Shown in pieces: positions 9,057-34,056 of a stretch of DNA of 64,000 bases (its first letter is position 1; every line of letters begins with the position of its first letter). The position numbers and the translations under genes were made by a program. Below the pieces are notes generated by a model. It made no database searches. It saw only the letters and a list, made by a program, of their open reading frames with translations, and was not told the origin of the DNA. The stretch comes from Pedosphaera parvula Ellin514 (GTDB lineage Bacteria; Verrucomicrobiota; Verrucomicrobiia; Limisphaerales; Pedosphaeraceae): contig NZ_ABOX02000009.1 of assembly GCF_000172555.1 (NCBI RefSeq), positions 124,001 to 188,000 on the forward strand, given 5' to 3'.

Positions 9057-10342
9057 GATTTGTTGAACTGACCATTCATTGCCTTTTGGTTCTAGCGAGC
9101 ATCACCGCTTCGGCGGAGGATGCCAAACCGTTGAGTCTGAAGGATGCAGAGGCCATTGCACTGCAAAAGCATCCCCGGATTACGGCGGCGGAGCTAAGAG
9201 CCCTCGCTTCCAAACAGGTGACCCGTGAAGCACGGTCAGCTTACTATCCCACGATCACCGGGAATGCCACGCTCGCTGGAGGCTCTGGCAACAATACGCG
9301 TATCGCCGCTGGCGGCTTGAACAACCCACTCATCCTGGATCGAAATGCGGAAGGCATTAATGTCAACCAGTTAATCTACGATTTCGGACGCACCGCGAAT
9401 TTGACGGCGAGTTCGGAATTGCGTTCCAGGGCCGAGGAGGAAAATGCTCTGGCAACGCGCGCGCAAATTGTGTTGCAAGTGGATGCCGCGTATTTTGATG
9501 CCTTGCAGGCGCAATCCGTTCTCGGAGTGGCTAACCAGACGGTGGCGACACGGCAGACGCTTTTTGACCAGATAAATGAACTTGCGAACAACAAGCTGAA
9601 ATCGGGTTTGGATGTGAGTTTTGCGCGGGTGAGCCTGGAGGAAGGCAAGCTGTTGCTGGCCAAAACGGAGAATGACCTGCAAGGGGCTTTTGCCTCGCTC
9701 GCGGCGCTTTTGGGAGATCGTGACCAGCAACAATACCATCTGCTGGATACAGCTTCTCCAGCCTCGTTGAATATGGACCAAAATCAATTGGTCGAAAAAG
9801 CCCTGCAGAACCGGCCGGATCTGGCGCGGCTGCGCTTTGAGAAGGAGGCCGCAAAAAAGTTTGCCCGCGCAGAGAAGGATCTGCATTACCCAACCATCAA
9901 TGCCATGGGCAGCGCGGGAATTATTCCTCTGCATGATTCCAAATTGAATGACAACTATGCCGCTGCGGGGATTAACGTGAGTTTGCCCATTTTTGACGGT
10001 TTCCTCTTTTCGGCCCGCGCGAAGGAGGCTGAACTCAGGGCGAAAGCAGTGGAGGCGACCATGCTCGATGAGGAAAACAATATCGTCCGTGATGTGAAGC
10101 TCGCGGCGCTGAACCTGAACTACGCGGCCGAGCGGGTGACGCTCACCGGCAAGTTGGTCGAGAGCGCCAATGATGCCTTTGATCTGGCTCAAGCCCGCTA
10201 CAAGGTCGGCTCCAGCTCCATTGTTGAATTAAGCCAGGCGCAGTTGGCGAAGACTGAAGCGGAAATAGCACAAGCCCGGGCCAAATATGAATATCAGGTC
10301 CGGAAATCGGTCCTGAGCTACCAAACCGGAGAGATCAAATAG
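9053..10342 (+). CDS. TolC-family outer-membrane efflux channel
   Basis: 429 residues with an N-terminal signal peptide (LTIHCLLVLASITASAE) and two OEP repeats. The first starts LSLKDAEAIALQKHP and the second around residue 235 (NQLVEKALQNRPDLARLRFEKEAA). Long Ala/Glu-rich helical stretches forming the periplasmic tunnel surround short beta segments (GINVNQLIYDFGR; AAAGINVSLPIFDGF) at the two expected strand positions. The start overlaps the permease stop, which fixes the operon order adaptor - RraA - permease - channel. No lipobox is evident, so it is not an OprM-like lipoprotein. Confidence 0.93.
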   Translation: MRFVELTIHCLLVLASITASAEDAKPLSLKDAEAIALQKHPRITAAELRALASKQVTREARSAYYPTITGNATLAGGSGNNTRIAAGGLNNPLILDRNAEGINVNQLIYDFGRTANLTASSELRSRAEEENALATRAQIVLQVDAAYFDALQAQSVLGVANQTVATRQTLFDQINELANNKLKSGLDVSFARVSLEEGKLLLAKTENDLQGAFASLAALLGDRDQQQYHLLDTASPASLNMDQNQLVEKALQNRPDLARLRFEKEAAKKFARAEKDLHYPTINAMGSAGIIPLHDSKLNDNYAAAGINVSLPIFDGFLFSARAKEAELRAKAVEATMLDEENNIVRDVKLAALNLNYAAERVTLTGKLVESANDAFDLAQARYKVGSSSIVELSQAQLAKTEAEIAQARAKYEYQVRKSVLSYQTGEIK

Positions 10343-15029: not shown

Positions 15030-16136
15030 ATGAGTAATAATGCAAAACGCAGTTATTTCTGGCCCGCCTTGATCGCGAGTGCTTTTGTTTTCGGGGCAGT
15101 CCTGTGGGGGCTTTGGATGTACAAGTTGGTCAAACAAACCCGAAGCTACAAGGAAAACGCGTTTCCAGTGCCCCGTTCTGAGCCGGTTGATACACCTCCG
15201 ACCAACGGTACCGCGCCAAGATCGGAAGCAGTTGTGCCGAACACCAATGGAATGGCATGGATTCAAGGTGGGACTTTTTATATGGGCTCAGAGGAAGGCA
15301 GACCGGATGAAAAGCCTGTTCATCAAGTGACTGTGCATGGATTCTGGATGGATAAGACAGAGGTTTCGAACGAACAGTTTGAGAAGTTCGTGCAGTCAAC
15401 CGGTTACATCACCATGGCCGAACGAAAGCCTAACCCGAAGGATTATCCCGATGCTGATCCTTCTCTGTTGGTGCCCGGTTCAGTGGTATTTTCTCCTCCA
15501 TCCGAATCTGTGCCTCTGACTGATGCCTCAGCCTGGTGGCGATATGTTCCCGGAGCCGATTGGCGTCATCCTGAAGGTCCCAATTCCACGATTAAAGGTC
15601 GTGAGAAGCATCCGGTAGTTCACGTCGCGTGGGAAGACGCCATGGCCTATGCGAAATGGGCGGGTAAGCGGTTGCCCACCGAGGCTGAGTGGGAGTACGC
15701 GGCTCGCGGTGGGTTGGACCGCCAGCCGTATGTCTGGGGAAAAGAGATGAACACCAATGGAAATTGGCAGGCCAATATTTGGGAAGGCCATTTTCCAAAT
15801 GAAGATACGGGTGCTGATGGATTCAAGGGAACTGCTCCCGTGGCCACCTTTAAGCCCAATGGCTATGGGCTCCATGACATGGCTGGAAACGTCTGGGAAT
15901 GGTGCTCAGACTGGTATCGCCCGGACTATTACGCGCAAAGCGTTGGAAAAAACCCGAAGGGTCCCGAGGATAGCTTTGATCCGGAAGAACCCGGTGCGAA
16001 GAAGCGTGTGCAACGTGGCGGTTCGTATCTTTGCAATGATGTTTATTGCAGTGGCTACAAGCCGAGTTCACGCATGAAATGCACGCCGGACACGGGGCTG
16101 TCACACAGCGGGTTTCGCTGTGTTTGGTCCAACTAA
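15030..16136 (+). CDS. formylglycine-generating enzyme (SUMF1/FGE family), membrane-anchored
   Basis: Converts the active-site Cys of sulfatases into C-alpha-formylglycine with O2 and copper. 368 residues: N-terminal TM anchor (FWPALIASAFVFGAVLWGLWMY), linker to about residue 70, then the FGE-sulfatase fold (WIQGGTFYMGSEEGRPDEKP; VSWxxA-like HVAWEDAMAYAKWAGKRLPTEAEWEYA; GLHDMAGNVWEWCSDWY). The two catalytic, copper-binding cysteines are Cys335 and Cys340 in GGSYLCNDVYC, with the same spacing as human FGE Cys336/Cys341; the end GFRCV is standard. Many bacterial SUMF1 paralogues lack these cysteines, so this one is probably a true FGE. It is convergent with the sulfatase gene 17 bp away, its obvious substrate. 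Confidence 0.92.
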   Translation: MSNNAKRSYFWPALIASAFVFGAVLWGLWMYKLVKQTRSYKENAFPVPRSEPVDTPPTNGTAPRSEAVVPNTNGMAWIQGGTFYMGSEEGRPDEKPVHQVTVHGFWMDKTEVSNEQFEKFVQSTGYITMAERKPNPKDYPDADPSLLVPGSVVFSPPSESVPLTDASAWWRYVPGADWRHPEGPNSTIKGREKHPVVHVAWEDAMAYAKWAGKRLPTEAEWEYAARGGLDRQPYVWGKEMNTNGNWQANIWEGHFPNEDTGADGFKGTAPVATFKPNGYGLHDMAGNVWEWCSDWYRPDYYAQSVGKNPKGPEDSFDPEEPGAKKRVQRGGSYLCNDVYCSGYKPSSRMKCTPDTGLSHSGFRCVWSN

Positions 16137-16153: not shown

Positions 16154-17620
16154 TTATTTAACCTTCGTTTCCTGGTCTTCTTTGATCTCGGCGACTGTCT
16201 TTGCCGGCCAACGAGGGTCATCAGTGCGGGCCTTTTTGAGGTAATCGGCAATTTTAGCCATCACCTCTGGGTTCTTATCGGCGACATTGTCCTTTTCGCT
16301 CACATCAGTCTTAAGATTATAAAGCTCGATTGGACCATTGATACCATGACGGACGGCCTTCCAGTCACCCATGCGGACAGCCTGATCAAATCCCTGCTCA
16401 TGAAACTCCCAATAGAGATACTGATGCCTATTGGTTTGAGCCTTGCCCAAGAGGGTGGGAAGGAAGGAGATGCCATCGATATTGGTTGGGCTTGAGGTGC
16501 GGGCAATCTCGGCAGCGGTCGGCAGAAAATCCCAGAAGGCAAGTGGCGCATCGCTAATGCTGCCTGCCTTTACCCTGGCAGGCCAGCGCACGATGAAGGG
16601 CACACGAATGCCGCCCTCGTAAAGATCACGTTTGATGCCACGCAGGCCGCCCGCGCTGTTGAAATATTTGGGATTGACCCCGCCTTCCTTGTGAGGCCCG
16701 TTGTCACTCGCGAAAATCACCACGGTGTTTTCGTCGAGCTTGGACTTTTTCAAATAATCCATGATCTCCCCAACGTAGTGATCGAGCCTCGTAATCATGG
16801 CAGCCTTGTTTTTTTCCACCTGAGGCCATTGTTCATTTGTGTAGGGCTCGGTGCTGGGAACTTCCATGCCGTTGCCGGTTCTGTTTCCCAATTCGTTGTT
16901 GGCATGCGGCAGGGTGTAAGGAAGATACAGAAAAAAGGATCGGTGTTTGTTGAGCTTGCTCGGCTTGTTGATGCGAAGGTAATTCAGTGCGGATTGAGTA
17001 AAAAAATCGTTGGAATAAAGACCCTTGTGATCAGCATCATTTTCAGTGAGTGCGATTTTTGATTCCTCACCTTTTGAATCACTGCGAAAAAGATGTGTGG
17101 GATAGTAGTCATGGGCCTGAACCTGGTCCAGGTAACCCAAATACTCATCAAAGCCTTGTCGACCCGGCAGACCGGGACTACCTTCATTTCCCAAGCCCCA
17201 CTTGCCAATACATCCTGTTGCGTAACCGGCAAGTTTCAGAATTTTCGCAATGGTAAGCTCCTCACCGTTAAGAGAAAGGTCAGCATTTCCACGGATGTTT
17301 ACGTGGCCGGTATTTTTACCGGTCATGAGAGTGGCTCGTGATGGCGCACAAACGGTGCTGCCAGCATAAAAGCTGGTGAACTTCATACCGTCTTCAGCCA
17401 GTTTATCGATGTTCGGTGTCTTTATCTGTGTTTGTCCATAACAACCGAGATCGCCATAACCCAAATCATCGGCAAGGATGAGAATAATGTTCGGACGCCG
17501 CGGGGCAGGGGGCCGATTGGTGCTCGTTTGAGCGTCTGAGGTCAGGGTTAGGAGCCCCGAGAACGAAACCATCGACCAGAGCAAAAGCTTCCGGCAAAGA
17601 CTTAAAGTGTAACGAGACAT
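16154..17620 (-). CDS. exported arylsulfatase, Cys-type
   Basis: 488-residue alkaline-phosphatase-superfamily sulfatase hydrolysing a sulfate ester, probably of a sulfated polysaccharide. The signal peptide covers about residues 1-31. Metal ligands D51-D52 lie in LILADDLGYGDLG. The signature C91-A-P-S-R95 (STVCAPSRATLMTG) is the formylglycine site. Further sites are KWGLG (Lys), the YLPYTLPHAN His and the FASDNGPHKEGG Asp-Asn metal site. The C-terminal subdomain runs to EIKEDQETKVK. It needs maturation by an FGE; a convincing FGE is encoded convergently next door. Substrate class cannot be read from sequence; it resembles S1-family enzymes. Confidence 0.94.
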   Translation of the reverse strand: MSRYTLSLCRKLLLWSMVSFSGLLTLTSDAQTSTNRPPAPRRPNIILILADDLGYGDLGCYGQTQIKTPNIDKLAEDGMKFTSFYAGSTVCAPSRATLMTGKNTGHVNIRGNADLSLNGEELTIAKILKLAGYATGCIGKWGLGNEGSPGLPGRQGFDEYLGYLDQVQAHDYYPTHLFRSDSKGEESKIALTENDADHKGLYSNDFFTQSALNYLRINKPSKLNKHRSFFLYLPYTLPHANNELGNRTGNGMEVPSTEPYTNEQWPQVEKNKAAMITRLDHYVGEIMDYLKKSKLDENTVVIFASDNGPHKEGGVNPKYFNSAGGLRGIKRDLYEGGIRVPFIVRWPARVKAGSISDAPLAFWDFLPTAAEIARTSSPTNIDGISFLPTLLGKAQTNRHQYLYWEFHEQGFDQAVRMGDWKAVRHGINGPIELYNLKTDVSEKDNVADKNPEVMAKIADYLKKARTDDPRWPAKTVAEIKEDQETKVK

Positions 17621-20943: not shown

Positions 20944-21019
20944 GGGTTGGTAGCTCAGTTGGTAGAGCAGTGCCCTTTTAAGGCATTGGTCCAGGGTTCG
21001 AGTCCCTGCCAACCCACCA
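20944..21019 (+). tRNA. tRNA-Lys(UUU)
   Basis: 76-nt tRNA with encoded CCA. Acceptor GGGTTGG pairs with CCAACCC, discriminator A. D arm GCTCAGTTGGTAGAGC, anticodon stem GTGCC/GGCAT with loop CTTTTAA and anticodon TTT at 20977-20979, T arm CAGGG-TTCGAGT-CCCTG. Its 3' half from the anticodon onward is repeated exactly 13.3 kb downstream, so it probably served as an integration target. Confidence 0.98.
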
Positions 21020-21022: not shown

Positions 21023-21381
21023 CGTACCTCAGGTTGAACCTCCCCAAGTAAGGTTCATTATCTTCTTAGCTTTATTTCTCCATTCACAGCGTCTGATCAA
21101 GTCGGGAAAATGAGTATGTTTAGTCGCCGCTGCAAGCATCACCTATTTCGGTGATAGAGCTTTAACCATATTCAGGGATATGAAGGTCGATACTTTTTCC
21201 CTATATTCCACCTCAATCAGCCAAACACAATCAAACAAGGACGGAATTATTCCCGTCTCGACTTTGTCTGTCTAACGAAGCTAACAACCTAAAAATTGAT
21301 CGTCGACTGTGGGTTCACCGCCGTCACCCTGAATCCACCAACAAACCTATCCAGCCAGATAATGTCGCTGGCGAAATCAAT
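21023..21381. other. 359-bp leader upstream of the repeat-protein gene
   Basis: No ORF and no integrase fragment is seen here, although this is where an island integrase gene often sits. It contains the inverted-repeat motif at 21133-21175, listed separately, and a TC-rich leader before the ATG. Confidence 0.5.
21133..21175 (+). promoter_or_regulatory. conserved inverted-repeat motif, copy 1
   Basis: A perfect inverted repeat ATCACC-TATTTC-GGTGAT, then nine variable bases, then ACCATATTCAG. The same arrangement with identical spacing occurs at 29928-29970. It lies about 210 bp before the 1290-aa protein gene. It could be a regulator-binding site (a NarL-type regulator is encoded in the same region) or part of a transcribed leader. 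Confidence 0.55.
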
Positions 21382-24300
21382 ATGAACAAAGCCCAAATCA
21401 TCAAACGCAAAATTCCGGTGAGCCTTGGTTGCCTGGCTACGCTGTTCTTCGTCGGTGCTGCTTCTGCGGCATTGACCATCACTACGGACAATCAGAACAG
21501 CGCCAGCTCGTTTACTCCCAATTGGACCGTCGCCACTGATAGTCTAATTGCCGGGGCCTCTCCCAGCAGTTCTTCCGGTAACCTTACCCTGGAGGCAGCT
21601 GGCGGCAGTTCCAAATTAACTGATGGTGCCATTGGCCCGGTGGGTAGCGGCACGGGACCTTTTGCCACTTGCGGCAACAGTGGCGGGGCAGGTGCGACAT
21701 TAGTTTACACTCTCCCGGCTTCCGCTCACGGATACAACCTCACCAATGTTACCGTCTACAGTGGGTGGGGTGATAATGGCCGCGACGCGCAGGCATATAA
21801 TGTTTCTTATTCCACCGTGGCGAATCCCACCTCTTTTATTTCTTTGGGCTACGTCAATTACAATCCTTCGGTTGGCGGCGGCCGGCCATCAGCCAACCGT
21901 GTGATGTTGACAGACTCATTGGGCGCGCCAATCGCAGCGAACGTTGCGGCGATTAAATTCGACTTTACAGCTCCAACTGTCGAGAACGGTTATGCTGGTT
22001 ATGCGGAAATCACGGTGCAGGGGACAGCGGCGGCCACAGTGACCGCACTGCCTATTGCGATTTCAACCAGTGATCAAACTCCTGGTGCCGGTAACAGCCC
22101 CACTTTCACCATTGAAACGGACAGTTTGATTGCCGGACAAGTTCCCAGCACTGTTGGTGGCGGCAATTTTCAGCAAGAGTTTGCAACCGGCACCCCGGCG
22201 CTGACGGACGGTACATTTGGAACTGTTGACTCCGCCGCCACCTATGCGACGGGCGGCGCTTCGGGGGGGAATTCTCTCATTTACACGCTCACCAATTCCG
22301 CGAACGGGAGTGATCTCACGAACATAGTTGTCTACAGCGGTTGGGGAAATCGCAATCGTGACGGTCAATTTTACAACGTCTTATACTCCACGGTGTCAGC
22401 CCCCACGACGTTCATTCCTCTGACAAGTATTTTTTATAATCCTCCGCTTGCCGATGGCACCGCCCCGTTCGCACATCGGTTAGCCATCAGTACTTCCACA
22501 GGCGCGCCGCTCGCCCAAAACGTTGGTGCCCTTAAATTCGATTTCACACCGCAAGCTGGCAGCGTGGATAACGGTTATTCCGGCTATGCTGAAATCATTG
22601 TGGAAGGGATCAATTCCGCGCCTCCAACCGCACCTCCTGCACCTTATTTGCTCACGGATGCCCAGCCTGCCAGCGCAGCAAATATGGTAGGCGAACAGGT
22701 GATTTTTACGGCGGCCTTCAGTAATTCCCCCGCCGCCACCTTTCAATGGCAGAAGGTCGTCGGCGCGGTGACCAACGACATTCCCGGAGCCACAACGACG
22801 ACGCTAACACTCAATAACCTGCAGGTTGCAGACTCAGGTTCGTATCAGTTGAAGGCAATTAACGCGACCAACAACCTGGGAGTTTCCTATTCCGCCGCCA
22901 GGCCGCTAACGGTCAGCAGCGTGCCGGCACCGGTTAATGGTGTCATCACCAAACTGGCTGCCCAGACTGGCCTCGGTTTTGGTGAATTTATTCCCACCTG
23001 GACCGTGTCAACGAATAACAGTCTGATTGCGGGACAGTTACCCAGTAGTGTTGGCCTCGGCAATTTCAGCATGGAGCTTGATACTCGGGTTGTAGATTCT
23101 TTGACGGCTGGAGGCAATGGCTCACTTTCACTCATGCCCGGAACAACGGCACCTTTTACCACCACTCCCAATTATGTGTCGTGCGGTATCAATCCGGCAG
23201 GCCAGTCGATTACTTACACTCTACCTGCTTCGGCCACCGGCTATGACCTGACCAATATCATGGTTTTCGGCGGTTGGGCTGATGGGGGGCGCAATGAACA
23301 AAAATACACTGTTTATTACTCGACCGTGGCGGCACCGACATCTTTCAACGCGCTGGCAACCGTGGATTACAACCCGGCGGATCCTGCCAATGCACAGTCG
23401 GCCACTCGGGTGACACTGGTGCCTTCAGGGACAGCCGTGGCGCAAAACGTTGCGGCAGTGATGTTCGACTTTAATATGGTGGGTGCGCCACCTAAAAACA
23501 ATTGGGAAGGTTACTCGCAGATTCTTTTGTTTGGTGTGCCTTCCGCGCCCAAGCCAATTCTGGTGCAGGATGTCTCGCCGCTCAACGCCTCGGATGTGGT
23601 AGGCAGCCAGCTTACCATGACGGCGACCTTCAACGGTGCAACGAGTTACCAGTGGCAAAAAGATGGTGCCAACATCGCCGGAGCCACGTTGTCGACTCTG
23701 ACGTTGAATAATCTGCAACTCAGTTCCACCGCCACCAACGGCGGCTACCGTCTGGTGGCCTCCAATGTCTCGGGATCAAGTTCCAGCCGGGCTTGCGCGC
23801 TCACGGTTATTCCCGTACCGGCGGCCGATGCGAATAACGTTGTGCTGGACGTTGCCACCCAGACTTCTGACGCTCAAGCCTTCGGTCCCACGTGGACGGT
23901 CGCTTCAGGCAGTCTCATCGCCAACGCCGCTCCCAGCGATATGGGAACGGGAAACTTCAATGACCCGGATGTAAATCCCGCTTCCTACTACCTGGCAGGT
24001 GGTACTCCCGCACTTACGGATGGCACCTATGGTTCCATTGATAATTCAGGTGCTCATCCCAGTTTCGCCACCTGCGGGCCGAACGCTGGTCAGTATGTCA
24101 CTTATACTTTCGATACCAGCGTCTTCACTAACGGGTACACACTCACCAACATCACTGTGGGGGCCGGATGGAATGATGGCGGACGTGATCAGCAGGCTTA
24201 CACGGTTTACTACGCCACCGTGGCGAACCCTTTGTTTGTCCCCTTAACGAGCGTCAACTACAACCCTGCCAATCCTGGTAATACGAAATCGTACTCACGG

Positions 24301-25254
24301 GTGACCTTGGTCAGCCCTACGGGATTACTCGCGTCCAACGTAACCGCTGTGCTGATTGATTTCACCTCACCGGTCGGCGAGAACGCTTATTCAGGTTACG
24401 ATGAAATTGCGGTTTATGGCGTTCCTTCTGGAGCTGTGCCGGCCAACGCCATCGCGACAACGACAGAGAATCAGAACACGGATACGCCCACGTGGACTGT
24501 CGAAACCGACAGCCTGATTGAAAACCAACTCCCGAGCAGCGTTGGGCCTGGCTCGTTCGCGGGCAATTTCAATAATGAACCCTTTACGGGTGGTCTGCCT
24601 GTTCTAACCGACGGCACCTTTGGTCCGTTTGGACTGGGTAACACCAACTTTGCCACGTGTGGTGGTGGCTTCGGAGCAGGGTCCTCCATTATCTATGGTG
24701 CGGCCACTGGTTGGAACTTGAACAAAATTGTAGTTTACAGTGGATGGGGCAATTTTGACCGCGACGGTCAGTTCTACGATGTGTCCTACTCCACACTGTC
24801 GGCCCCAGGCACATTCATCCCATTGGTAACGGTCGATTATAATCCGCCAAACCTTGGCGGACCTTCAGTCAACCGCGTCGCGATTGCTCGCTTGGACAAC
24901 TCGCCGTTGGCCACACAGGTCGCCGCTGTAAAATTCGACTTCACCCGACAGAACGGCAGCTTGGACAACGGTTATTCCGGCTACGCTGAAATCGTATTGC
25001 AGGGAGTCAACCTGTCGGCGCCAACATCTCCGACGGTCCATTCACCATATGTCGCAAATGGTAATCTGATTCTGACGGGCACCGGCGGCACGCCGAACCG
25101 GCCCTACACCTGGCTCAGTACTACCAACCTTTCGGCCCCGGTTGTTTGGACGACGAACTCGACCGGTGTGCTGAGTGGCACTGGATCATTCTCGAATGCA
25201 GTGCCAATCAATGCCGCTCAGCCAGCCAGCTTTTTCCAGCTGCGCATGCCTTAA
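21382..25254 (+). CDS. large secreted protein with five copies of an undescribed ~190-aa module and Ig-like domains
   Basis: 1290 residues, Sec signal peptide to about residue 30 (VGAASAALTI). Five copies of one module start near residues 32, 227, 520, 819 and 1022. Each has P-x-WTV..DSLIAG..PSS..GNF, a FATCG/YVSCG segment, YTLP/TNSA.GYDLTNI.VY.GW.D.GRD.Q.Y.V.YSTV..PT.F, V.YNP, and NV.A..FDF....ENGYSGYAEI...G. Two Ig-like domains (about 420-515 and 718-815; TLTLNNLQ..DSG.Y) separate copies 2-3 and 3-4. The end (residues 1205-1290, closing FFQLRMP) is a variant of the C-terminal module found on other proteins here. The fold looks like a beta-sandwich, F5/8C or carbohydrate-binding type (inference). 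A sixth module copy is on the next gene's rhamnosidase. Confidence 0.8.
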   Translation: MNKAQIIKRKIPVSLGCLATLFFVGAASAALTITTDNQNSASSFTPNWTVATDSLIAGASPSSSSGNLTLEAAGGSSKLTDGAIGPVGSGTGPFATCGNSGGAGATLVYTLPASAHGYNLTNVTVYSGWGDNGRDAQAYNVSYSTVANPTSFISLGYVNYNPSVGGGRPSANRVMLTDSLGAPIAANVAAIKFDFTAPTVENGYAGYAEITVQGTAAATVTALPIAISTSDQTPGAGNSPTFTIETDSLIAGQVPSTVGGGNFQQEFATGTPALTDGTFGTVDSAATYATGGASGGNSLIYTLTNSANGSDLTNIVVYSGWGNRNRDGQFYNVLYSTVSAPTTFIPLTSIFYNPPLADGTAPFAHRLAISTSTGAPLAQNVGALKFDFTPQAGSVDNGYSGYAEIIVEGINSAPPTAPPAPYLLTDAQPASAANMVGEQVIFTAAFSNSPAATFQWQKVVGAVTNDIPGATTTTLTLNNLQVADSGSYQLKAINATNNLGVSYSAARPLTVSSVPAPVNGVITKLAAQTGLGFGEFIPTWTVSTNNSLIAGQLPSSVGLGNFSMELDTRVVDSLTAGGNGSLSLMPGTTAPFTTTPNYVSCGINPAGQSITYTLPASATGYDLTNIMVFGGWADGGRNEQKYTVYYSTVAAPTSFNALATVDYNPADPANAQSATRVTLVPSGTAVAQNVAAVMFDFNMVGAPPKNNWEGYSQILLFGVPSAPKPILVQDVSPLNASDVVGSQLTMTATFNGATSYQWQKDGANIAGATLSTLTLNNLQLSSTATNGGYRLVASNVSGSSSSRACALTVIPVPAADANNVVLDVATQTSDAQAFGPTWTVASGSLIANAAPSDMGTGNFNDPDVNPASYYLAGGTPALTDGTYGSIDNSGAHPSFATCGPNAGQYVTYTFDTSVFTNGYTLTNITVGAGWNDGGRDQQAYTVYYATVANPLFVPLTSVNYNPANPGNTKSYSRVTLVSPTGLLASNVTAVLIDFTSPVGENAYSGYDEIAVYGVPSGAVPANAIATTTENQNTDTPTWTVETDSLIENQLPSSVGPGSFAGNFNNEPFTGGLPVLTDGTFGPFGLGNTNFATCGGGFGAGSSIIYGAATGWNLNKIVVYSGWGNFDRDGQFYDVSYSTLSAPGTFIPLVTVDYNPPNLGGPSVNRVAIARLDNSPLATQVAAVKFDFTRQNGSLDNGYSGYAEIVLQGVNLSAPTSPTVHSPYVANGNLILTGTGGTPNRPYTWLSTTNLSAPVVWTTNSTGVLSGTGSFSNAVPINAAQPASFFQLRMP

Positions 25255-25481: not shown

Positions 25482-28400
25482 ATGAATTACTCTAAACATT
25501 TTGTTCGGACAGTGCTATGTGCCATCCTGTTTGTAACCAGCGTGGCTGGCATAAACGCGCAGGCAGCGCTGCCACCAGTGAACTTGCGCTGCTCCAACCG
25601 GGTAAATCCGCAAGGCATCGGCGACGTCCCTCCCAGATTGTCCTGGCAACTTCAAAGAACCGGAACTGCGAGAGGAGAGGTGCAAACCGCATACGAAATT
25701 CAGGTTGGTTCGTCGGCGGGGATGACAGATTTATGGAATAGCGGGAAAGTAATGAGTCCGGCGACGCTGGATATCTCGTACGCGGGCCAGCCGTTGACCA
25801 GTGGGCAGCAATGTTACTGGCAGGTGCGGGTATATGACGGGGGGAACAATGTGTCAGCCTGGAGCGCGCCAGCGCAATGGTCCATGGGGCTGCTGTCGCA
25901 ATCGGATTGGACGGGGCAGTGGGTGGGCTTCGATGCGGCATATAACCCGACGCCGGAACAGGCAGCAAACAACGCTTTGTTCAACACCTCGGGCTTGAAC
26001 TGGATTAGTTACCCGGGACAAACGCCGCAGAACGGCATTTATCAATCTTCATTAAGGAAGAAAGTGATCCTGCCGGCGGGTCAGAATATTACCAACGCCA
26101 TCGTGGCACTCTATGCGGATAATTCCTGTGACGTTTTTGTGAACGGACAGCAGATGACGAATTCGGCAGCACGCTGGGAAGCCACCTCCCGAATCAATGT
26201 AGCGCCCTGGCTGCACGCGGGTACCAATGTACTGGCGCTCGGAGCCACGAGCGGCGATGCCCAGGAGTCAGCCACTGTGATTGGCCGGTTGGTGGTCCAA
26301 TTTTCCTCGGGCAGTATATCCAACATACCGGTGGACACTTCCTGGAAAGCGGCACAATGGCCGACGGGCAGTTGGACGCAGACCAATTATGATGATTCAG
26401 CGTGGATCACTCCCACCAGCGGCGGAACACCGTGGGGCACTCCGTCGCTGAATGACCTCGCGCGGGTTCCGGCCAGCTATTTGCGGAAAAATTTTGTGGT
26501 CGGGCAAAGCATCAAGCGGGCATCGATTTATGTGACCGCATTAGGTGCGTATGAATTGCATATCAATGGCCAGAAAGTCGGGAACGATGTGCTCACTCCC
26601 GGCTGGACCGAGTTCAGTAAACGAGTTTATTACCAAACGTATGACGTCACCGGTATGGTGCAGGCAGGTGCAAACAGCATCGGTGCCATCCTCGGGGACG
26701 GTTGGTATGCCAGCGATGTGGCCTTCAAGGGTTCGCGCCTTAACTATGGCGGCACACCGCGATTTTTGGCCCAGCTCATCCTGGAACTTGCGGATGGAAG
26801 CAAGCAGACAGTGGTCAGCAATGGTTCGTGGAAAGCCAGCTATGGTCCGATTCAATTTGGCGATTTGCTAATCGGATCGGGCTATGACGCCCGACAAGAA
26901 GTGCCTGGATGGGACACGACCAATTTTAATGACAACGCGTGGTCGCCGGTACTGACCGGCCTGAAGGCCACGAGCGGTGGTTACTCGAACGTGACGACCA
27001 TCGTTCGGGGGCTCGTGACAAACAACCAACTCAATTTTTCGGTGAATAATACCACCATGGGCGGCGATCCTGCCTACGGCGTCGTTAAAATATTGGAAAT
27101 CAATTTTACGCTCGGCGGTACGAACCAGACCTTATTCTTTGGGGAAAACGCCACGGTTCAAATTGGCGGTGGAGGCCAGACGTTGACCATCAATCAGGCG
27201 CTTTACGGTAATTCGGCCGCGTTTCCTGGTCTGGGTGGACTTCAAGTGCAAGCCGCGGTCACTGAACCCTCAAGGTGTTTCGAAACACTGGCAGCCACGA
27301 ATCTCACTTTGCCGAAACCGGATTGTTATACCTTTGATCTCGGCCAGAACATGGTCGGTTGGGTGCGGTTGAATATTAGCGGCGGCGTTGGCGACCGCAT
27401 CACAGTGCGGCACGGTGAAATGCTGAATCCCGATGGATCAATCTACACGGCAAATCTTCGTGGTGCGGTTGCGACCGACTTCTATACTTTCGGCACTAAT
27501 GGCACGGTGGTTTACGAGCCACGTTTCACCTTCCACGGTTTTCGTTATGTTGAAATACGGGGACTCAAGGTGCCGCCCACACTGAATTCAGTGACAGGTA
27601 TCGTAGTCCATTCGGACATGCCGCGGACTGGTAACTTCCAATGTTCAAATCCGCAGTTGAACCAGCTCTTCAGCAACATCATTTGGGGACAGAAAGGCAA
27701 TTATCTTGAAACGGCTACGGACTGTCCACAGCGCGATGAACGTCTGGGCTGGACCGGGGACACGGAATTCTTCGTTCCAACTGCCGCTTACAATTTCGAC
27801 GTCCAGTCCTTCTTCCGACGGCATCTGGTCACGCTATGCGAAGATTCTCAACATTCTGATGGTTCCTTTGCCGTGGTTGCGCCTGATATGGGATCGGGCA
27901 GCGGCGGGACCGCCTGGGGTGATGCCGGGTGGATCTGCCCCTACAATATGTATCGAGCCTATGGCGATACCAATGTCATCAGCGAGCATTACGCCGCCAT
28001 GCAGCGCAACGGACAATTCGATGCTGCCAGTGCGTCAAACTACGTGATTTCAAGTCTGCCCGGGGATTTTGGCGATTGGCTCAACTTGGGAGGAGGAGCT
28101 TCCTCAGCGGTGATGGACACTGCCTATTACGCTTATTATGCGCAAGCAATGTCGGAGATGGCTGCCGCCATAGGTAAGACTTCAGATGCCGCCACCTACG
28201 CCGCCTTACACAGCAACATCGTCGTCGCCTTCGCCGGTTTCTTCAATCCCGATGGCTCGTTCAAGGACGGCAGTGATCAAACCGGTTACGCGCTGGCGTT
28301 CACGCTGGGCTTGGTTCCTGACGCACTGCGTGCCCAGGCTTCGCAAAAGTTCGCCGACACCATCTCCGAGTTTGGTGGTCACCTGGCGACTGGCTTCATC

Positions 28401-29822
28401 GGCACACCACGCCTGTTGCCCGCATTGCATGCCGCTGATCGCGACGATCTGGCCTATGGACTGTTGCTTCAGACCACCTATCCATCCTGGCTTTACCAAG
28501 TGAATCTCGGAGCCACAACCATGTGGGAACGTTGGGACGGGTGGACGCCTGGCGGCGGATTTCAGACGGTCATCATGAACTCCTTCAATCACTATGCTTT
28601 TGGTGCCGTGGGCGAATACTTATATAGTGTTGTTGGCGGTATCAAACCAGCGAGCCCGGGTTATCAGACGATTCGCATCCAGCCGGTTCCCCGCGCCGGA
28701 TTGACCTGGGCCAATACCAGCTACAATTCAACGCCCGGGCTGATCTCTACTGCCTGGACCAATGTCGGAGGCGTGTTCAATTTGGATATGGAGATTCCGC
28801 CAAATACGACCGCCGAAATTTATTTGCCAACCTCAAATGCCGGTGCCATCACGGAAAGCGGCGTCCTGGCGACCACTTCACCCGGTGTGAGTTATCTTGG
28901 CGCTTCCAATGGCTTCGCCATTTACGCTGTTGGTTCCGGCCACTATGCCTGGTTTTCACCGCTTCAAATTCCTGTGACGCCGAGCGTCCTCGTTTCTACA
29001 ACCAACCAGACTGGGAACGGCAGTGGTACCTATATCCCGCCATGGACCATTGTGACCAACGGCAGCTTGATCGCCGGTCAACGTCCGAGCAGCATGAGTG
29101 GCAATTTCAGCATGGAAATTCCCGGTCGGAGCGTTTTTTCACTGACGACCAGCCACAGTCTCGCGCTCACCCAGATACCCGGAACTTCGGGATATACCAC
29201 CAGCACGAACTATGTAACCTGCGGCAACGGTAGCGGGGCGGGTTCGCTGTTGGTTTATTCGCTCACCAATTCTGCCAGCGGTTACGACCTGACTAACATC
29301 ACGGTTTACGGCGGTTGGGCTGACAATGGCCGGGATCAACAGGCCTACACTATTTCTTACTCCACAGTCATGGCCCCCACGAATTTCATTTCATTGGCGG
29401 TCGTAAACTATAATCCCCAGATTGCCAGCGGCATTCAGTCCGCCACGCGAGTAGTGGTGACCTCTTCAACGGGTGTGTTGGCGACCAACGTGGCGGCCGT
29501 GAAGTTTAACTTTACCACTCCGGGGTCCGAGAACGGTTATTGTGGCTATGCGGGAATAACCATGTTTGGAACTCCCACTCAAGTCGTGGTTCCACCCGCG
29601 ACCAATCCAACCAATCTCCTGTTTCAAGTATCAGCCAACAGTTTGATGCTTAACTGGCCCAGCGACCACCTCGGTTGGCGGTTGCAAGTGCAGACCAATA
29701 ACTTGAATGTCGGGATCGGCACTAATTGGTTTGATGTCGCTGGAGCAACGACCACCAACCAAATTTTCTTTCCCATCAACCCGGGCAATGGTGGCGTCTT
29801 TTATCGATTGTTATATCCTTAG
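25482..29822 (+). CDS. secreted GH78 alpha-L-rhamnosidase with extra C-terminal modules
   Basis: 1446 residues, long for GH78 (about 900-1100). Signal peptide to about residue 27 (INAQA). Order: Ig/FnIII-like N domain (28-140; PPRLSWQL, YEIQVGSS, YWQVRVYD), a beta-sandwich domain (about 185-325; LRKKVILPAGQ...DVFVNGQ...DTSWKAA...YDDSAW), a rhamnosidase N domain (about 335-480; ASIYVTALGAYELHINGQKVG), the concanavalin-like domain, then the (alpha/alpha)6 barrel with the GH78 signature DCPQRDERLGWTGD near residue 746, which holds the catalytic acids, and a C-terminal beta domain. After about residue 1165 come one copy of the module shared with the upstream gene and the FYRLLYP-ending C-terminal module. 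It hydrolyses terminal alpha-L-rhamnose from plant glycosides or pectic polymers. Confidence 0.93.
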   Translation: MNYSKHFVRTVLCAILFVTSVAGINAQAALPPVNLRCSNRVNPQGIGDVPPRLSWQLQRTGTARGEVQTAYEIQVGSSAGMTDLWNSGKVMSPATLDISYAGQPLTSGQQCYWQVRVYDGGNNVSAWSAPAQWSMGLLSQSDWTGQWVGFDAAYNPTPEQAANNALFNTSGLNWISYPGQTPQNGIYQSSLRKKVILPAGQNITNAIVALYADNSCDVFVNGQQMTNSAARWEATSRINVAPWLHAGTNVLALGATSGDAQESATVIGRLVVQFSSGSISNIPVDTSWKAAQWPTGSWTQTNYDDSAWITPTSGGTPWGTPSLNDLARVPASYLRKNFVVGQSIKRASIYVTALGAYELHINGQKVGNDVLTPGWTEFSKRVYYQTYDVTGMVQAGANSIGAILGDGWYASDVAFKGSRLNYGGTPRFLAQLILELADGSKQTVVSNGSWKASYGPIQFGDLLIGSGYDARQEVPGWDTTNFNDNAWSPVLTGLKATSGGYSNVTTIVRGLVTNNQLNFSVNNTTMGGDPAYGVVKILEINFTLGGTNQTLFFGENATVQIGGGGQTLTINQALYGNSAAFPGLGGLQVQAAVTEPSRCFETLAATNLTLPKPDCYTFDLGQNMVGWVRLNISGGVGDRITVRHGEMLNPDGSIYTANLRGAVATDFYTFGTNGTVVYEPRFTFHGFRYVEIRGLKVPPTLNSVTGIVVHSDMPRTGNFQCSNPQLNQLFSNIIWGQKGNYLETATDCPQRDERLGWTGDTEFFVPTAAYNFDVQSFFRRHLVTLCEDSQHSDGSFAVVAPDMGSGSGGTAWGDAGWICPYNMYRAYGDTNVISEHYAAMQRNGQFDAASASNYVISSLPGDFGDWLNLGGGASSAVMDTAYYAYYAQAMSEMAAAIGKTSDAATYAALHSNIVVAFAGFFNPDGSFKDGSDQTGYALAFTLGLVPDALRAQASQKFADTISEFGGHLATGFIGTPRLLPALHAADRDDLAYGLLLQTTYPSWLYQVNLGATTMWERWDGWTPGGGFQTVIMNSFNHYAFGAVGEYLYSVVGGIKPASPGYQTIRIQPVPRAGLTWANTSYNSTPGLISTAWTNVGGVFNLDMEIPPNTTAEIYLPTSNAGAITESGVLATTSPGVSYLGASNGFAIYAVGSGHYAWFSPLQIPVTPSVLVSTTNQTGNGSGTYIPPWTIVTNGSLIAGQRPSSMSGNFSMEIPGRSVFSLTTSHSLALTQIPGTSGYTTSTNYVTCGNGSGAGSLLVYSLTNSASGYDLTNITVYGGWADNGRDQQAYTISYSTVMAPTNFISLAVVNYNPQIASGIQSATRVVVTSSTGVLATNVAAVKFNFTTPGSENGYCGYAGITMFGTPTQVVVPPATNPTNLLFQVSANSLMLNWPSDHLGWRLQVQTNNLNVGIGTNWFDVAGATTTNQIFFPINPGNGGVFYRLLYP

Positions 29823-30167
29823 GTTAACAAGTGAGAGAACGTTGTAAAAGTCGTGAAACTTCGTTTTGGAATCAAGTGTTCGAAAAGTTTCGAAGCGAAC
29901 CGCGGCCGGGTTGAAACGAAATCTTCTGAAGCATCCCCTATTTCGGTGATGCAAGTGTCACCATGTTCAGTGGCTTGGCGGATATGCTGGATTGGAAATA
30001 AAGTAAGCCGAACCATTTAACATTTCATCGTCGCCCATCAACCCTCGTCGAAGCATGACACGGCTAAGGGTGTCGTTGATTACAAATAAATCTGCATGAT
30101 GAATGAGCAACAATTCTGCTTTCACGGCAATCCATAAAATAGGCCGAAACAATTTAAATTTTTATAT
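29823..30167. other. 345-bp spacer between rhamnosidase and pseudopilin genes
   Basis: No ORF. It carries the second copy of the conserved inverted-repeat motif (29928-29970). The stretch before the pseudopilin ATG is AT-rich and promoter-like, but no clear -35/-10 pair is claimed. Confidence 0.45.
29928..29970 (+). promoter_or_regulatory. conserved inverted-repeat motif, copy 2
   Basis: GCATCCCC-TATTTC-GGTGATGC (7 of 8 arm positions pair), nine variable bases, then ACCATGTTCAG. It matches copy 1 at 21133-21175 in loop sequence, spacing and the flanking block. It lies about 200 bp before the pseudopilin gene, the same distance as copy 1 from its gene. Confidence 0.55.
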
Positions 30168-31013
30168 ATGAAGAAAGCAGCGAACATTGAGAAAGCGACT
30201 GATCGAAAGGGCAGCCAAAGAAGTGCGGCCTTTACGCTGATTGAGCTGTTGGTGGTGATTGCCATAATTGCAATTCTGGCAGCATTGTTACTTCCAGCTT
30301 TATCGAAGGCTAAGGATCGTGCAACAGGCATCAGTTGCCTCAACAATCTCAAGCAGCTCACGCTGGCGGCCCATATTTATGCAAGCGATAATCAAGACGC
30401 CATCATTCCAAATTTGGTCAATAATAACAGTGCCTGGGTCGGGGGGGATGTCAGTTACCTGCCCGGAGCTACCAACGTTGCGGATATTCGGGCGGCCCTG
30501 CTTTTTCCTTACAGCAAATCTGAAGGCATTTACCACTGTCCGGCGGACAAGTTTAGTGTCCAAGGGAGCAGCGGATTTCGGGCGCGCAGCTATTCATTAA
30601 ATGGCATGATGGGAGATAATGGCGGAGCGAATGGCGTCCATCCGAACATTCAGGAATGCCGCAAGTTGTCCGAGATTAAAAATCCCGGTCCTTCGATGGC
30701 TTCGTTTTTCTTTGACGAACAATCTGATCCCCGCAACCCCGCCTTGTCCAGCATTGATGATGGGTATTATGCCATTGAATCAACCAGTCCGAGGACATCG
30801 GGCAACTGGCGCAATTTGCCGGCAAGTCGTCACGGTAACGCCGGCCTGATCTCATATGCGGATGGCCATGCTCAAAGGATGAAGTGGCTCGAAGGTACGA
30901 CTCAAGGGTTAAAAGGAAACTCGCGGAGCGGGCCGGTCGCCGCACACACGAAGGCAAATGACCGGGATCTGCAACAACTTTTTAATACCACCTATCCTCC
31001 AGAACTCTGGTAA
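30168..31013 (+). CDS. type II-secretion-like pseudopilin with processing-associated H-X9-DG domain
   Basis: 281 residues. The N-terminal leader (about 22 residues, basic) is followed by the prepilin peptidase/methylation site [25 protein letters not shown] with Glu+5, then the globular domain common in Planctomycetes/Verrucomicrobia pseudopilins ([27 protein letters not shown]; a terminal [21 protein letters not shown] matching the H-x9-DG pattern). Such proteins are thought to take part in a pseudopilus or in surface display. Here it sits between glycan-active genes and their presumed regulators, so it may help export or present the enzymes (inference). Confidence 0.88.
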
Positions 31014-31202
31014 TTCTCAGAGCAAACCTGTCACCTCCCATTACAAACTGGAGGTCGATGATGACTGACTCGTTCGCTTGGAGTGATGCCTTTTCAGGAC
31101 AGATTCCCCTTGAATGCCGAAAAATCAAAAGGTTTTTACCACAGGCAATGAAGCAGAAGCAAAATAACAGCCTTGGAGCAGCTAAAATAACCTTCATCAT
31201 GC

Positions 31203-33350
31203 TTGCCCCTGGTGCAAAAACAGGCTAATACTCCGACGATTGTCATAAACAAAAATCTGTTGAACCTTTCCGTCAATCTTTGGCTAAAGAGAAATGGGTT
31301 GTGCTCCTTCCAGTTCAGGGGAGCCACAATTTTATGGCTATTTTTGTGCCTTGCTTCCATCACCCAACTGGCCAACGCACGCGCAACTGATCACACGGAC
31401 ATTGTTAACCAAGCCCAGGAGTCTTTTGACAACCCAACCAATGTTTTAGGCTCATGGATCTGGGGAGCGCACACATCCGATGGGCAGACCTGTCAATTCT
31501 GGCGTTCGTTTGAAGTTCCTTCAGGAGCCACAGTCACGCGGGCACGACTGCTCGTGACAGTCGATAATGAGCACACACTCTTTTTTGATGGACGCGAATT
31601 GGGCCACAGAGCCGAATGGCGTAATCTATGTGAATATGATTTGACTCTTTTGATGTCTCCGGGCCGTCATGTGTTGGGGGTTATGGCATTCAACTCCAAG
31701 GATTTCGCGGGAATGATTTTCGGGTTGCGAGTTGAACTGGCTGACGGCCGGACGATTCAAGTCAAGTCAGACAGCAGTTGGCGCATAATTCCTGTAGGAG
31801 TGCGTGGTTGGGAAAAAATGACTGAAGCGCCCGATACCTGGCAGCCAGCCACCGTGGTCGCTCCCTTGGGGGCCTCTCCGTGGTGGCAAAAACCAGCAGA
31901 TATTGAAGTCATTCCCCCAATTCAGCCGATCAAAACCTTTGTAGGCCCTTCAATCGGACATAGTGACATCGTTAACGAAGCCTTGGGGTCTTTTGATAAC
32001 CCGACCAATGTTTTAGGCTCATGGATTTGGGCTGCGCACATATTTGACCGGCAGACTTGTCAGTTCTGGCGTTCATTTGAAATTCCTTCGGGAGCTACAG
32101 TCATGCGGGCACGACTGCGAATGACAGTGGATAATGAGCACACTCTCCTTTTCGATGGACGGGAATTGGGCCGCGGAGCCGAGTGGCGCAACTTGTGTGA
32201 TTACGATTTGACATATTTGATGTCACCTGGCCGGCATGTACTTGGGGTTATGGCTTTCAACTCGGCTGGTTTTGCAGGAATGATTTTTGGCTTGCGGGTG
32301 GAGCTGGCGGACGGGCGGACGCTTCAAGTGAAATCAGACAGCAGTTGGCGAATTGTTCCGGAAGGAGTACGTGGTTGGGAAAAAATGACGGAGGCGCCGG
32401 ACACTTGGCAGCCCGCTACGATCGTTGCTCCACTCGGGGCGTTGCCGTGGTGGCAAAAACCCGAAGATATTGAAGTCGTTCCCCCATTACAGCCGATCAA
32501 GAGCTACTTCTGGCAAAGCAGCTGGTTTGAAATCAGTTTGATGGTATTATGCGGGCTGATCCTGCTAATCAGTCTCAGCTTGATGGCCCAACTGGCGCTG
32601 CACCAAAAAGAACGCTGGCTGCTGCAGCAGGAACGTGCGCGCATCGCCAGAGATATTCACGATGACCTTGGATCGAGGATGACGCAACTGGTGCTGCATG
32701 GAGAGGTGGCGCAAAGCGAATTATCGGCTGAGTCGGAAACACGTTCCCAATTGCAGGATATTTGTGAGGAGGCCCGCGGGCTTTTGTCCAGCGTGGATGA
32801 AATTCTGTGGGCGGTAAATCCCAGGCGGGATACGTTGCGTGATTTTGCATCCTACGTCTGCGGTTACGCACAGGAATTCTTCAAGCTTACCTCCATCCAA
32901 TGTATATTTGATGCTGATCCGGAAATGTCGGCTGCGCGATTTGATCTGCCCCTCCGGCGCAGCCTCCTCATGGCCATCAAGGAAACCTTTAATAACGCGG
33001 TCAAACATTCTGGAGCCACCGAGTTACTGCTGCAAATCCGGTGGCAACGCCAAAAGCTTATCGTGGTGGTACAGGACAATGGCAAGGGCTTTGACATGGC
33101 GAAAGCAAAAGCGGGGCGGAATGGCTTGACCAACATGTCACAACGAATGAAAGAACTCGGGGGCAATTGCCTCGTTACCAGCAAGCCCGGTCACGGATGC
33201 CGTGTTGAGTTTGCGATCCCTTTAACCCATTGGCGCCAGCGGCCGTGGGACTGGATTTTGAAAGCAAAAAGGTTTTCCACGCCAGGCAATGAAATGAAAC
33301 AGTCCCGGGAGAATGAAGGCGCAAAAATCCATGATCCGACCAACTGCTAG
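31203..33350 (+). CDS. sensor histidine kinase with duplicated rhamnosidase-like extracytoplasmic domain
   Basis: 715 residues from TTG 31203; no in-frame ATG precedes the signal region, and TTG 31299 (after AAGAG) is an alternative start just before the hydrophobic stretch LWLFLCLASITQLANA. Two tandem units of 189 residues (about 66-254 and 255-443) follow, nearly identical also in DNA. Each has SWIWGAH..D.QTCQFWRSFE, TVDNEHTLFFDGRELG, YDLT.LMSPGRHVLGVMAFN, DSSWRI and a DTWQPA end, the layout of the beta-sandwich domain in GH78 rhamnosidases. One TM (ISLMVLCGLILLISLSLMA) leads to a HisKA_3 domain with His486 (ARDIHDDLGSR) and a HATPase (ETFNNAVKHSGA; VQDNGKGFDM). This is a NarX/UhpB-type kinase. 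It overlaps the regulator gene by 38 bp. Confidence 0.88.
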   Translation: MPLVQKQANTPTIVINKNLLNLSVNLWLKRNGLCSFQFRGATILWLFLCLASITQLANARATDHTDIVNQAQESFDNPTNVLGSWIWGAHTSDGQTCQFWRSFEVPSGATVTRARLLVTVDNEHTLFFDGRELGHRAEWRNLCEYDLTLLMSPGRHVLGVMAFNSKDFAGMIFGLRVELADGRTIQVKSDSSWRIIPVGVRGWEKMTEAPDTWQPATVVAPLGASPWWQKPADIEVIPPIQPIKTFVGPSIGHSDIVNEALGSFDNPTNVLGSWIWAAHIFDRQTCQFWRSFEIPSGATVMRARLRMTVDNEHTLLFDGRELGRGAEWRNLCDYDLTYLMSPGRHVLGVMAFNSAGFAGMIFGLRVELADGRTLQVKSDSSWRIVPEGVRGWEKMTEAPDTWQPATIVAPLGALPWWQKPEDIEVVPPLQPIKSYFWQSSWFEISLMVLCGLILLISLSLMAQLALHQKERWLLQQERARIARDIHDDLGSRMTQLVLHGEVAQSELSAESETRSQLQDICEEARGLLSSVDEILWAVNPRRDTLRDFASYVCGYAQEFFKLTSIQCIFDADPEMSAARFDLPLRRSLLMAIKETFNNAVKHSGATELLLQIRWQRQKLIVVVQDNGKGFDMAKAKAGRNGLTNMSQRMKELGGNCLVTSKPGHGCRVEFAIPLTHWRQRPWDWILKAKRFSTPGNEMKQSRENEGAKIHDPTNC
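31398..32531 (+). repeat. in-gene tandem duplication, 2 x 567 bp
   Basis: The second unit begins 567 bp (189 codons) after the first. Long runs of the DNA are identical or differ only at third positions (for example around 31438-31460 against 32005-32027), including the linker that reads DIEV.PP.QPIK. The duplication is therefore recent or kept similar by conversion. Confidence 0.85.
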
Positions 33351-34056
33351 AAATACGAAGCAGGCCAGTGCCAGCCAGGCCGTTGACTCTTCAACGGAGA
33401 AGCGAATCAAAGTGGCCCTGGTTGAAGACCAGCCCGAGGTGCGGGAGAGTTGGACGCGGTTGCTCAACTCCTTTCCTGACTTTGCCTGCGTTTGTGCCTG
33501 CACCAGTGGAGAAGAAGCCCTGCGAATCATTCCGCAAGAGCAACCGGATGTGATTTTGATGGATATTTTTCTGCCTCGCATGTCAGGCATTGAATGCACG
33601 GCACGACTTAAGGTTCTGCTACCCCAGACTCAGATCGTTATTCTCACGGCCATGGATGATCAGGAACTGGTCTTCCTGGCACTCGAAGCGGGGGCAGATG
33701 GTTATCTATTGAAGCGAACAAAGCCGGCTGATTTGCGAACCGCCTTGCTGGAAGTGTTGCGCGGAGGGGCGCCAATGACCGGACAAATTGCACGTCGGGT
33801 CATCGAGTCGTTTCGCAGGAATGCCAAAAACCGTGACGAATCTGTGCGCCTTTCTGTAAGGGAGGAACAGATTTTGTTGCTGCTCTCGCAAGGCTACTCC
33901 AACAAATTAATTGCCAGCAAGCTGGAGTTGAGCATCGACACAGTTTGCAGTCACCTTAAGCACGTGTTTTACAAGCTGCACGTCAGTTCGCGCACGGAAG
34001 CTGTGGTTCGCTACATGGCCTCAAAAACTGAACGGCAGAAGCCTGAGGGTTTATAA
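33313..34056 (+). CDS. NarL/FixJ-type response regulator
   Basis: 247 residues. Receiver domain from about residue 31 (KRIKVALVEDQPEVRESW) with phospho-acceptor D84 (VILMDIFLP), the switch ITLTAM-like IVILTAMDD and Lys in GYLLKRTKPAD. The LuxR-type HTH is at about 178-240 (LSVREEQILLLLSQGYSNKLIASKLELS). The ATG at 33313 has GGGAG very close upstream; ATG 33331 would also serve, as the first 30 residues are poorly structured. It overlaps the kinase by 38 bp, so the pair is coupled. Likely targets are the secreted rhamnosidase and repeat-protein genes nearby (inference). Confidence 0.93.
   Translation: MKAQKSMIRPTARNTKQASASQAVDSSTEKRIKVALVEDQPEVRESWTRLLNSFPDFACVCACTSGEEALRIIPQEQPDVILMDIFLPRMSGIECTARLKVLLPQTQIVILTAMDDQELVFLALEAGADGYLLKRTKPADLRTALLEVLRGGAPMTGQIARRVIESFRRNAKNRDESVRLSVREEQILLLLSQGYSNKLIASKLELSIDTVCSHLKHVFYKLHVSSRTEAVVRYMASKTERQKPEGL

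Follow-up and report, generated by a model that had tools for sequence, protein, structure and literature searches.

The window analysed here, a stretch of 64,000 nucleotides, probably encodes a local two-component switch for alpha-L-rhamnosides, in which CBM67 units would pass a signal to a HisKA_3 histidine kinase, the kinase to a NarL-type regulator, and the regulator to operator-like DNA sites at positions 21135 and 29930. We have computed the architecture of the kinase, the predicted fold of its input units, the conservation of site residues within them, the linkage to rhamnosidase genes and the linkage of the DNA site to one subfamily of such kinases (subfamily A), which includes the window kinase and is well supported in the tree. 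The features concerned, in window positions, are as follows.

21135..21186, forward strand: operator-like site 1, 5' of the Ig-protein/GH78 gene pair
21382..25254, forward strand: large Ig-domain secreted protein, 5' of the GH78 gene
25482..29822, forward strand: GH78 alpha-L-rhamnosidase, with Bac_rhamnosid6H and accessory domains
25905..26465, forward strand: degenerate CBM67-like domain of the GH78 enzyme, DN kept, Asn and Gly of the site lost
29930..29981, forward strand: operator-like site 2, 5' of the prepilin-kinase-regulator operon
30168..31013, forward strand: prepilin-like (N_methyl) secreted protein, first gene of the kinase operon
31203..33350, forward strand: membrane sensor histidine kinase of HisKA_3/NarL type with a tandem CBM67-like ectodomain, the TTG at 31299 being a possible true start
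31392..31949, forward strand: CBM67-like unit 1, D121-N122 and N164 (ORF numbering) aligned with SaRha78A D179-N180 and N228
31959..32516, forward strand: CBM67-like unit 2, D310-N311 and N353, AlphaFold model of mean pLDDT 87
32520..32636, forward strand: long helix including the transmembrane (TM) segment, from unit 2 to the kinase, in the tandem model
32631..32825, forward strand: HisKA_3 dimerization/phosphoacceptor domain (Pfam), phospho-His H486 at 32658
32961..33227, forward strand: HATPase_c ATP-binding domain (Pfam), N box and G boxes present
33313..34056, forward strand: NarL/LuxR-type response regulator, Response_reg and GerE, phospho-Asp D84, overlapping the end of the kinase gene

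The coordinates that a preliminary description of this DNA had given for the kinase (31203-33350) hold, coding being carried by one open frame (31191-33347) with its stop at 33350, and the frame and the domain calls agree with its claim of a sensor kinase with a tandem pair of extracytoplasmic units spaced at 189 residues. The start codon is not ATG: no ATG was found in frame near the start of the gene, the TTG at 31203 is a mechanical call, and the TTG at 31299, just 5' of the hydrophobic segment, is a plausible alternative. The protein runs from a signal or TM segment through the two tandem units and a TM helix to HisKA_3 and HATPase_c; together with the His residue and the adjoining receiver-GerE regulator with its Asp, this is the make-up of a HisKA_3/NarL-type two-component system, and a NarL-type response regulator adjoins nearly every kinase of the family. 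The prepilin-like cassette recurs at the paralogue on contig C80 and in several relatives, the prepilin-like gene being the first of the operon in several kinase loci (window 30168-31013; L009, L047 and L069). The adjacent GH78 gene has a Bac_rhamnosid6H catalytic domain (E 8.6e-103) and, lying on the same strand as the gene for the Ig-domain protein (21382..25254), is likely to be co-transcribed with it. Elsewhere in the window, a formylglycine-generating-enzyme-like gene (15030-16136) faces a sulfatase gene (16157-17620), an arrangement that may be compared with a sulfated-glycan locus.

On the evidence of the models, the kinase ectodomain is two tandem units of predicted CBM67 fold. The unit matches the NCBIfam GH78 profile NF041573 (positions 125-293, E 1.2e-27), and a profile of the family finds in the PDB residues 138-294 of SaRha78A (3w5m, E 6.4e-19) and the entries of a Pleurotus lectin (E ~2e-27), so that sequence homology to domain D of SaRha78A is established, as is the resemblance to the non-catalytic domain of GH78 enzymes that had been described earlier. 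For the AlphaFold model of unit 2 (pLDDT 87), the structures that match best are SaRha78A with L-rhamnose (3w5n, Foldseek E 1.3e-10) and the lectin, including its rhamnose complex. Structure comparison (VIA) gave a Z of 20.1 and an rmsd of 2.2 over 157 residues for SaRha78A, and a Z of ~20 for the lectin, 10-17 for other GH78 enzymes and <=9 for unrelated folds; the likeness to the GH78 domain thus extends to a predicted CBM67 beta-sandwich. In the tandem model, two separate sandwiches are joined by a loose linker (model residues 179-202) and followed by the TM helix. The neighbouring GH78 enzyme (25482-29822), said earlier to share this domain layout, does contain a copy, although a diverged one.

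The CBM67 domain of SaRha78A binds rhamnose in a calcium-dependent manner (PMC4690510). CBM67-fold lectins can have several sugars as ligands, the Pleurotus lectin complexes having been solved with rhamnose, GalNAc and melibiose, and this counts against a reading in terms of rhamnose only. Elsewhere in the window's genome, large secreted enzyme-like proteins and others that are not rhamnosidases have CBM67-like domains too (G000, contigs C2, C10, C18 and C37; L014, L011, L012 and L013), and the fold by itself is thus no sign of rhamnose. These two observations, the promiscuity of the lectins (PMC11512411) and the wider use of the fold, favour an alternative in which the same switch responds to another sugar, or to a larger pectic or exopolysaccharide fragment containing little or no rhamnose, with the rhamnosidase as one of several induced enzymes. 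We regard this as unlikely, though it deserves more weight than the other alternatives considered below: among glycosidases, just two families recur near subfamily A, GH78 and GH106, and both are alpha-L-rhamnosidase families.

The residues of the putative sugar and calcium site are strongly conserved. Of 49 kinase units, all have both the D of the DN pair and the later N101, and 48 have N59, the N of the pair; in the aligned columns the DN pair and the later Asn are found in both window units and in nearly all relatives. The pair aligns with D179-N180 of SaRha78A, which we take to be residues that form the site; in a related lectin, the DD pair that matches DN has a role in Ca2+ binding (PMC11512411). 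The units of subfamily A share, in 27 of 27 cases, DNE and W76, the E never occurring at this place in other kinases. Kinases of a second subfamily, B, keep the core site residues and have no rhamnosidase neighbours, which means that the residues alone are no proof of rhamnose. Invariance of the site across deep divergence does, however, speak against the idea that the units are a structural or dimerization module, or bind a protein partner such as the prepilin-like or the secreted Ig protein, without any direct sensing of sugar. The frequent first position of a prepilin-like gene in the operon would suit that idea, as would the general point that a shared fold does not show function; we nevertheless consider it improbable, the kinases being linked to rhamnosidases of two unrelated folds.

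This linkage was assessed against expected numbers. Within 10 kb of subfamily A kinases, GH78 was present in 11 of 18 loci (0.36 expected, given the number of GH78 genes in each genome) and GH78 or GH106 in 13 of 18 (0.64 expected), whereas a rhamnosidase lay within the same distance in one of ten loci of other kinases (0.37 expected). In validation loci, taken from genomes unused before, the corresponding figures were six of seven for subfamily A (0.27 expected) and none of ten for the others. When the sets were pooled, 19 of 25 subfamily A loci stood against one of 20 for other kinases (Fisher p 2e-6, a value that assumes independent loci, several of which are close relatives). Five of the original 18 subfamily A loci had no rhamnosidase nearby, some of the contigs being short. 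The window's genome has two GH78 genes in 7.4 Mb, one of them here. GH78 and GH106 have unrelated folds and a common alpha-L-rhamnosidase activity; GH78 lies upstream of the kinase in some subfamily A loci and downstream in others, and GH106 takes its place at certain loci, facts that speak against a single arrangement passed down by descent. The earlier proposal of a kinase that has the sugar-binding module of GH78 enzymes as its input and is encoded with such an enzyme has therefore withstood comparison of both fold and neighbourhood, since subfamily A kinases stand repeatedly beside alpha-L-rhamnosidases in other genomes.

The upstream regions of genes next to subfamily A kinases have in common a 52-nt element (consensus ATCACCTRTTTCGGTGATNNNNNNNTNACCATGTTNGGGGAT) with the core ATCACC-N6-GGTGAT-N8-TCACC, of which ATCACC-N6-GGTGAT is a palindrome. 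Simple k-mer counts in upstream regions were barely above those of shuffled sequence, and the element became clear once matches were aligned. A weight matrix built from 17 sites found 26 sites in 478 kb of subfamily A loci, the 17 training sites among them; the 387 kb made up of other kinase loci and control regions had no site, nor had shuffled sequence. All sites are intergenic and face the gene downstream, mostly at a distance of 25-200 nt; they precede rhamnosidase and kinase-operon genes, six lying directly before a GH78 gene, and some precede genes for WbsX or Ig-type secreted proteins instead of rhamnosidases, a point that fits the alternative of a ligand other than rhamnose. At the scale of whole genomes, the site was present in 12 of 13 sampled genomes with a subfamily A kinase, G671 being the one in which it was not detected, and in none of 13 without, which included a genome of the same family and genomes with subfamily B only. 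The window's genome has five sites, all at its two subfamily A loci (two in the window, at 21135 and 29930, the other three on C80). A known RNA element was considered and rejected, Rfam having no family at the site; its only match is a tRNA gene (RF00005) at 20944-21016, just before operator-like site 1.

These observations also bear on whether carbohydrate genes cluster here by coincidence, the 52-nt repeat being a mobile or unrelated element. Glycosidase genes do cluster in these genomes, and the loci have common ancestry, but sister kinases in the same genomes lack such linkage, and chance is hard to reconcile with a site that lies between genes, points the same way as the gene after it, occurs only in genomes that have subfamily A and is matched by no known RNA; we therefore disfavour this explanation as very improbable. 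From its co-occurrence and position, the 52-nt site is a candidate binding site of the co-encoded regulator.

The rhamnoside switch that we prefer would then operate as follows. Outside the membrane, the two CBM67-type modules would bind a rhamnose-containing glycan or free L-rhamnose at a Ca2+ site (DN...N), and binding would alter the kinase dimer via the TM helix. The HisKA_3 kinase would phosphorylate the adjoining NarL-type regulator, which would bind the ATCACC-N6-GGTGAT-N8-TCACC sites at 21135 and 29930 and, once bound, raise the expression both of the Ig-protein/GH78 pair and of the prepilin-kinase-regulator operon to which it belongs. Within this scheme, we infer what the ligand is, that its binding depends on Ca2+, which way the response goes and that this regulator is the protein that binds the site.

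For this family of kinases, a pattern scan (one genome per species) gave 25 loci, all in Verrucomicrobia and nearly all in subdivision 3 or Limisphaerales; the window's order is Verrucomicrobia subdivision 3, where subfamily A is found. Within the order, the kinase occurs in 39 of 320 genomes, and in an even sample of the phylum in three of 388 including the window's own, or two of 387 other genomes at E 1e-100. In the tree, the CBM67 domains of the kinases group in one clade (SH-aLRT 98) that excludes the domains of GH78, GH106 and other proteins, which indicates that recruitment happened once, long ago. Derivation of the domain from the adjacent GH78 gene is thereby ruled out, and the earlier notion of a module borrowed from the neighbouring enzyme, whose copy lacks the Asn and the Gly, has to be abandoned.

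Nor does the age previously assigned to the tandem repeat stand. The two units, described as almost identical also in DNA and hence recently duplicated, agree over 181 codons at 82% of DNA and 85% of protein positions, with 98 DNA differences, 66 of them at third positions (dS ~0.86, dN ~0.085); the pair is therefore old and under purifying selection, although the duplication is younger than the split from the nearest single-unit relative (L017/G004). The window's genome has three such kinases: besides the tandem one here there are two with one unit each, the first on C80, where the prepilin-kinase-regulator cassette is the same, and the second on C5. Nearly all relatives likewise have one unit, so that a tandem pair does not define the family. 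In the tree, the units of a second tandem kinase (L047) pair with each other, as do those of the window kinase, and they must have been duplicated independently; single-unit relatives and two independent duplications rule out a tandem pair that is ancestral or essential.

Other branches differ in architecture and neighbourhood. Four family kinases have F5/8C and GH43/BT_3657-like domains before the CBM67 unit (L114:7798-10617, L115:7878-10673, L116:7457-10267 and L117:9363-12155). In L108 (3871-7056), a WbsX domain (PF14307) is fused to a CBM67 kinase, and L050 has a separate WbsX gene (7979-9721) with an operator-like site beside its kinase, the two loci making a fusion/neighbour pair. Very long secreted genes adjoin subfamily B kinases (L010, L063, L065, L066 and others), and PATR repeats occur in five proteins neighbouring them, which suggests that subfamily B has a different target. 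We see about an even chance that subdivision 3 holds an entire class of receptors for glycans that all build on the CBM67 histidine kinase, in which subfamily A would be the rhamnoside branch with its own operator and rhamnosidase regulon, and other branches would have added complete enzyme-like domains (F5/8C with GH43-like in L114-L117, WbsX-like in L108) that may bind or even process the glycan before signalling.

It appears, then, that a soil-type bacterium detects the plant sugar rhamnose with a module of rhamnose-cutting enzymes and switches those enzymes on. Substrate sensing by the mostly uncultured, polysaccharide-degrading Verrucomicrobia is little described in the openly licensed papers searched, and in full-text searches of such papers neither a CBM67 histidine kinase nor this regulon came up. 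The circuit is concrete and testable, with a receptor, a candidate ligand, a regulator, a DNA site and target enzymes, and it has a known accessory module of enzymes serving as histidine kinase input, with a sugar-binding site linked to a regulon. From their neighbouring genes, the ligands of sister kinases could be predicted, and the 52-nt site can be used for finding more target genes.

Among known systems, the CBM67 domain of SaRha78A from Streptomyces avermitilis (3w5m/3w5n) resembles the kinase unit in fold, sequence relation and the positions of DN and Asn, but it serves a secreted enzyme as accessory domain, whereas the unit here is the ectodomain of a membrane kinase. The Pleurotus ostreatus lectin (6kc2, 6t1d), whose structure was solved with rhamnose, also has two tandem CBM67-type domains per chain (fold Z ~20); unlike the kinase, it is soluble, fungal and without a signalling domain, and its domains are 42% identical (PMC11512411) as against 83-85% for the kinase units. 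The RsgI anti-sigma factors of Clostridium thermocellum are membrane regulators of matching enzymes and carry, outside the cell, a domain that binds polysaccharide or a GH10 domain (PMC4711584). The logic is the same, a sugar-binding or enzyme ectodomain controlling matching enzymes, whereas the output there is an anti-sigma/sigma-I pair freed by proteolysis, here a histidine kinase and response regulator, and the CBM families differ from CBM67; no RsgI domain is among the domain calls of the kinase, whose cytoplasmic part is HisKA_3 and HATPase_c. HisKA_3 kinases of the NarX/NarQ/UhpB type with NarL-type regulators share the kinase core and type of regulator, but their inputs are nitrate-sensing or UhpC-coupled and not CBM67-like. 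Bacteroides hybrid two-component systems and 7TMR-DISM receptors are further membrane kinases with a response to glycans or with presumed sugar-binding domains of jelly-roll type, the former with kinase and regulator fused, the latter with seven TM helices. By contrast, the present kinase has no 7TMR-DISM Pfam match among its calls and, in the model, one helix after unit 2, and kinase (31203-33350) and regulator (33313-34056) are separate genes. The parts are already known (CBM67, HisKA_3 kinases, NarL-type regulators and GH78); what appears, from the openly licensed papers searched, to be new is CBM67 as the input of a histidine kinase, probably tied to rhamnosidases via a DNA site of its own.
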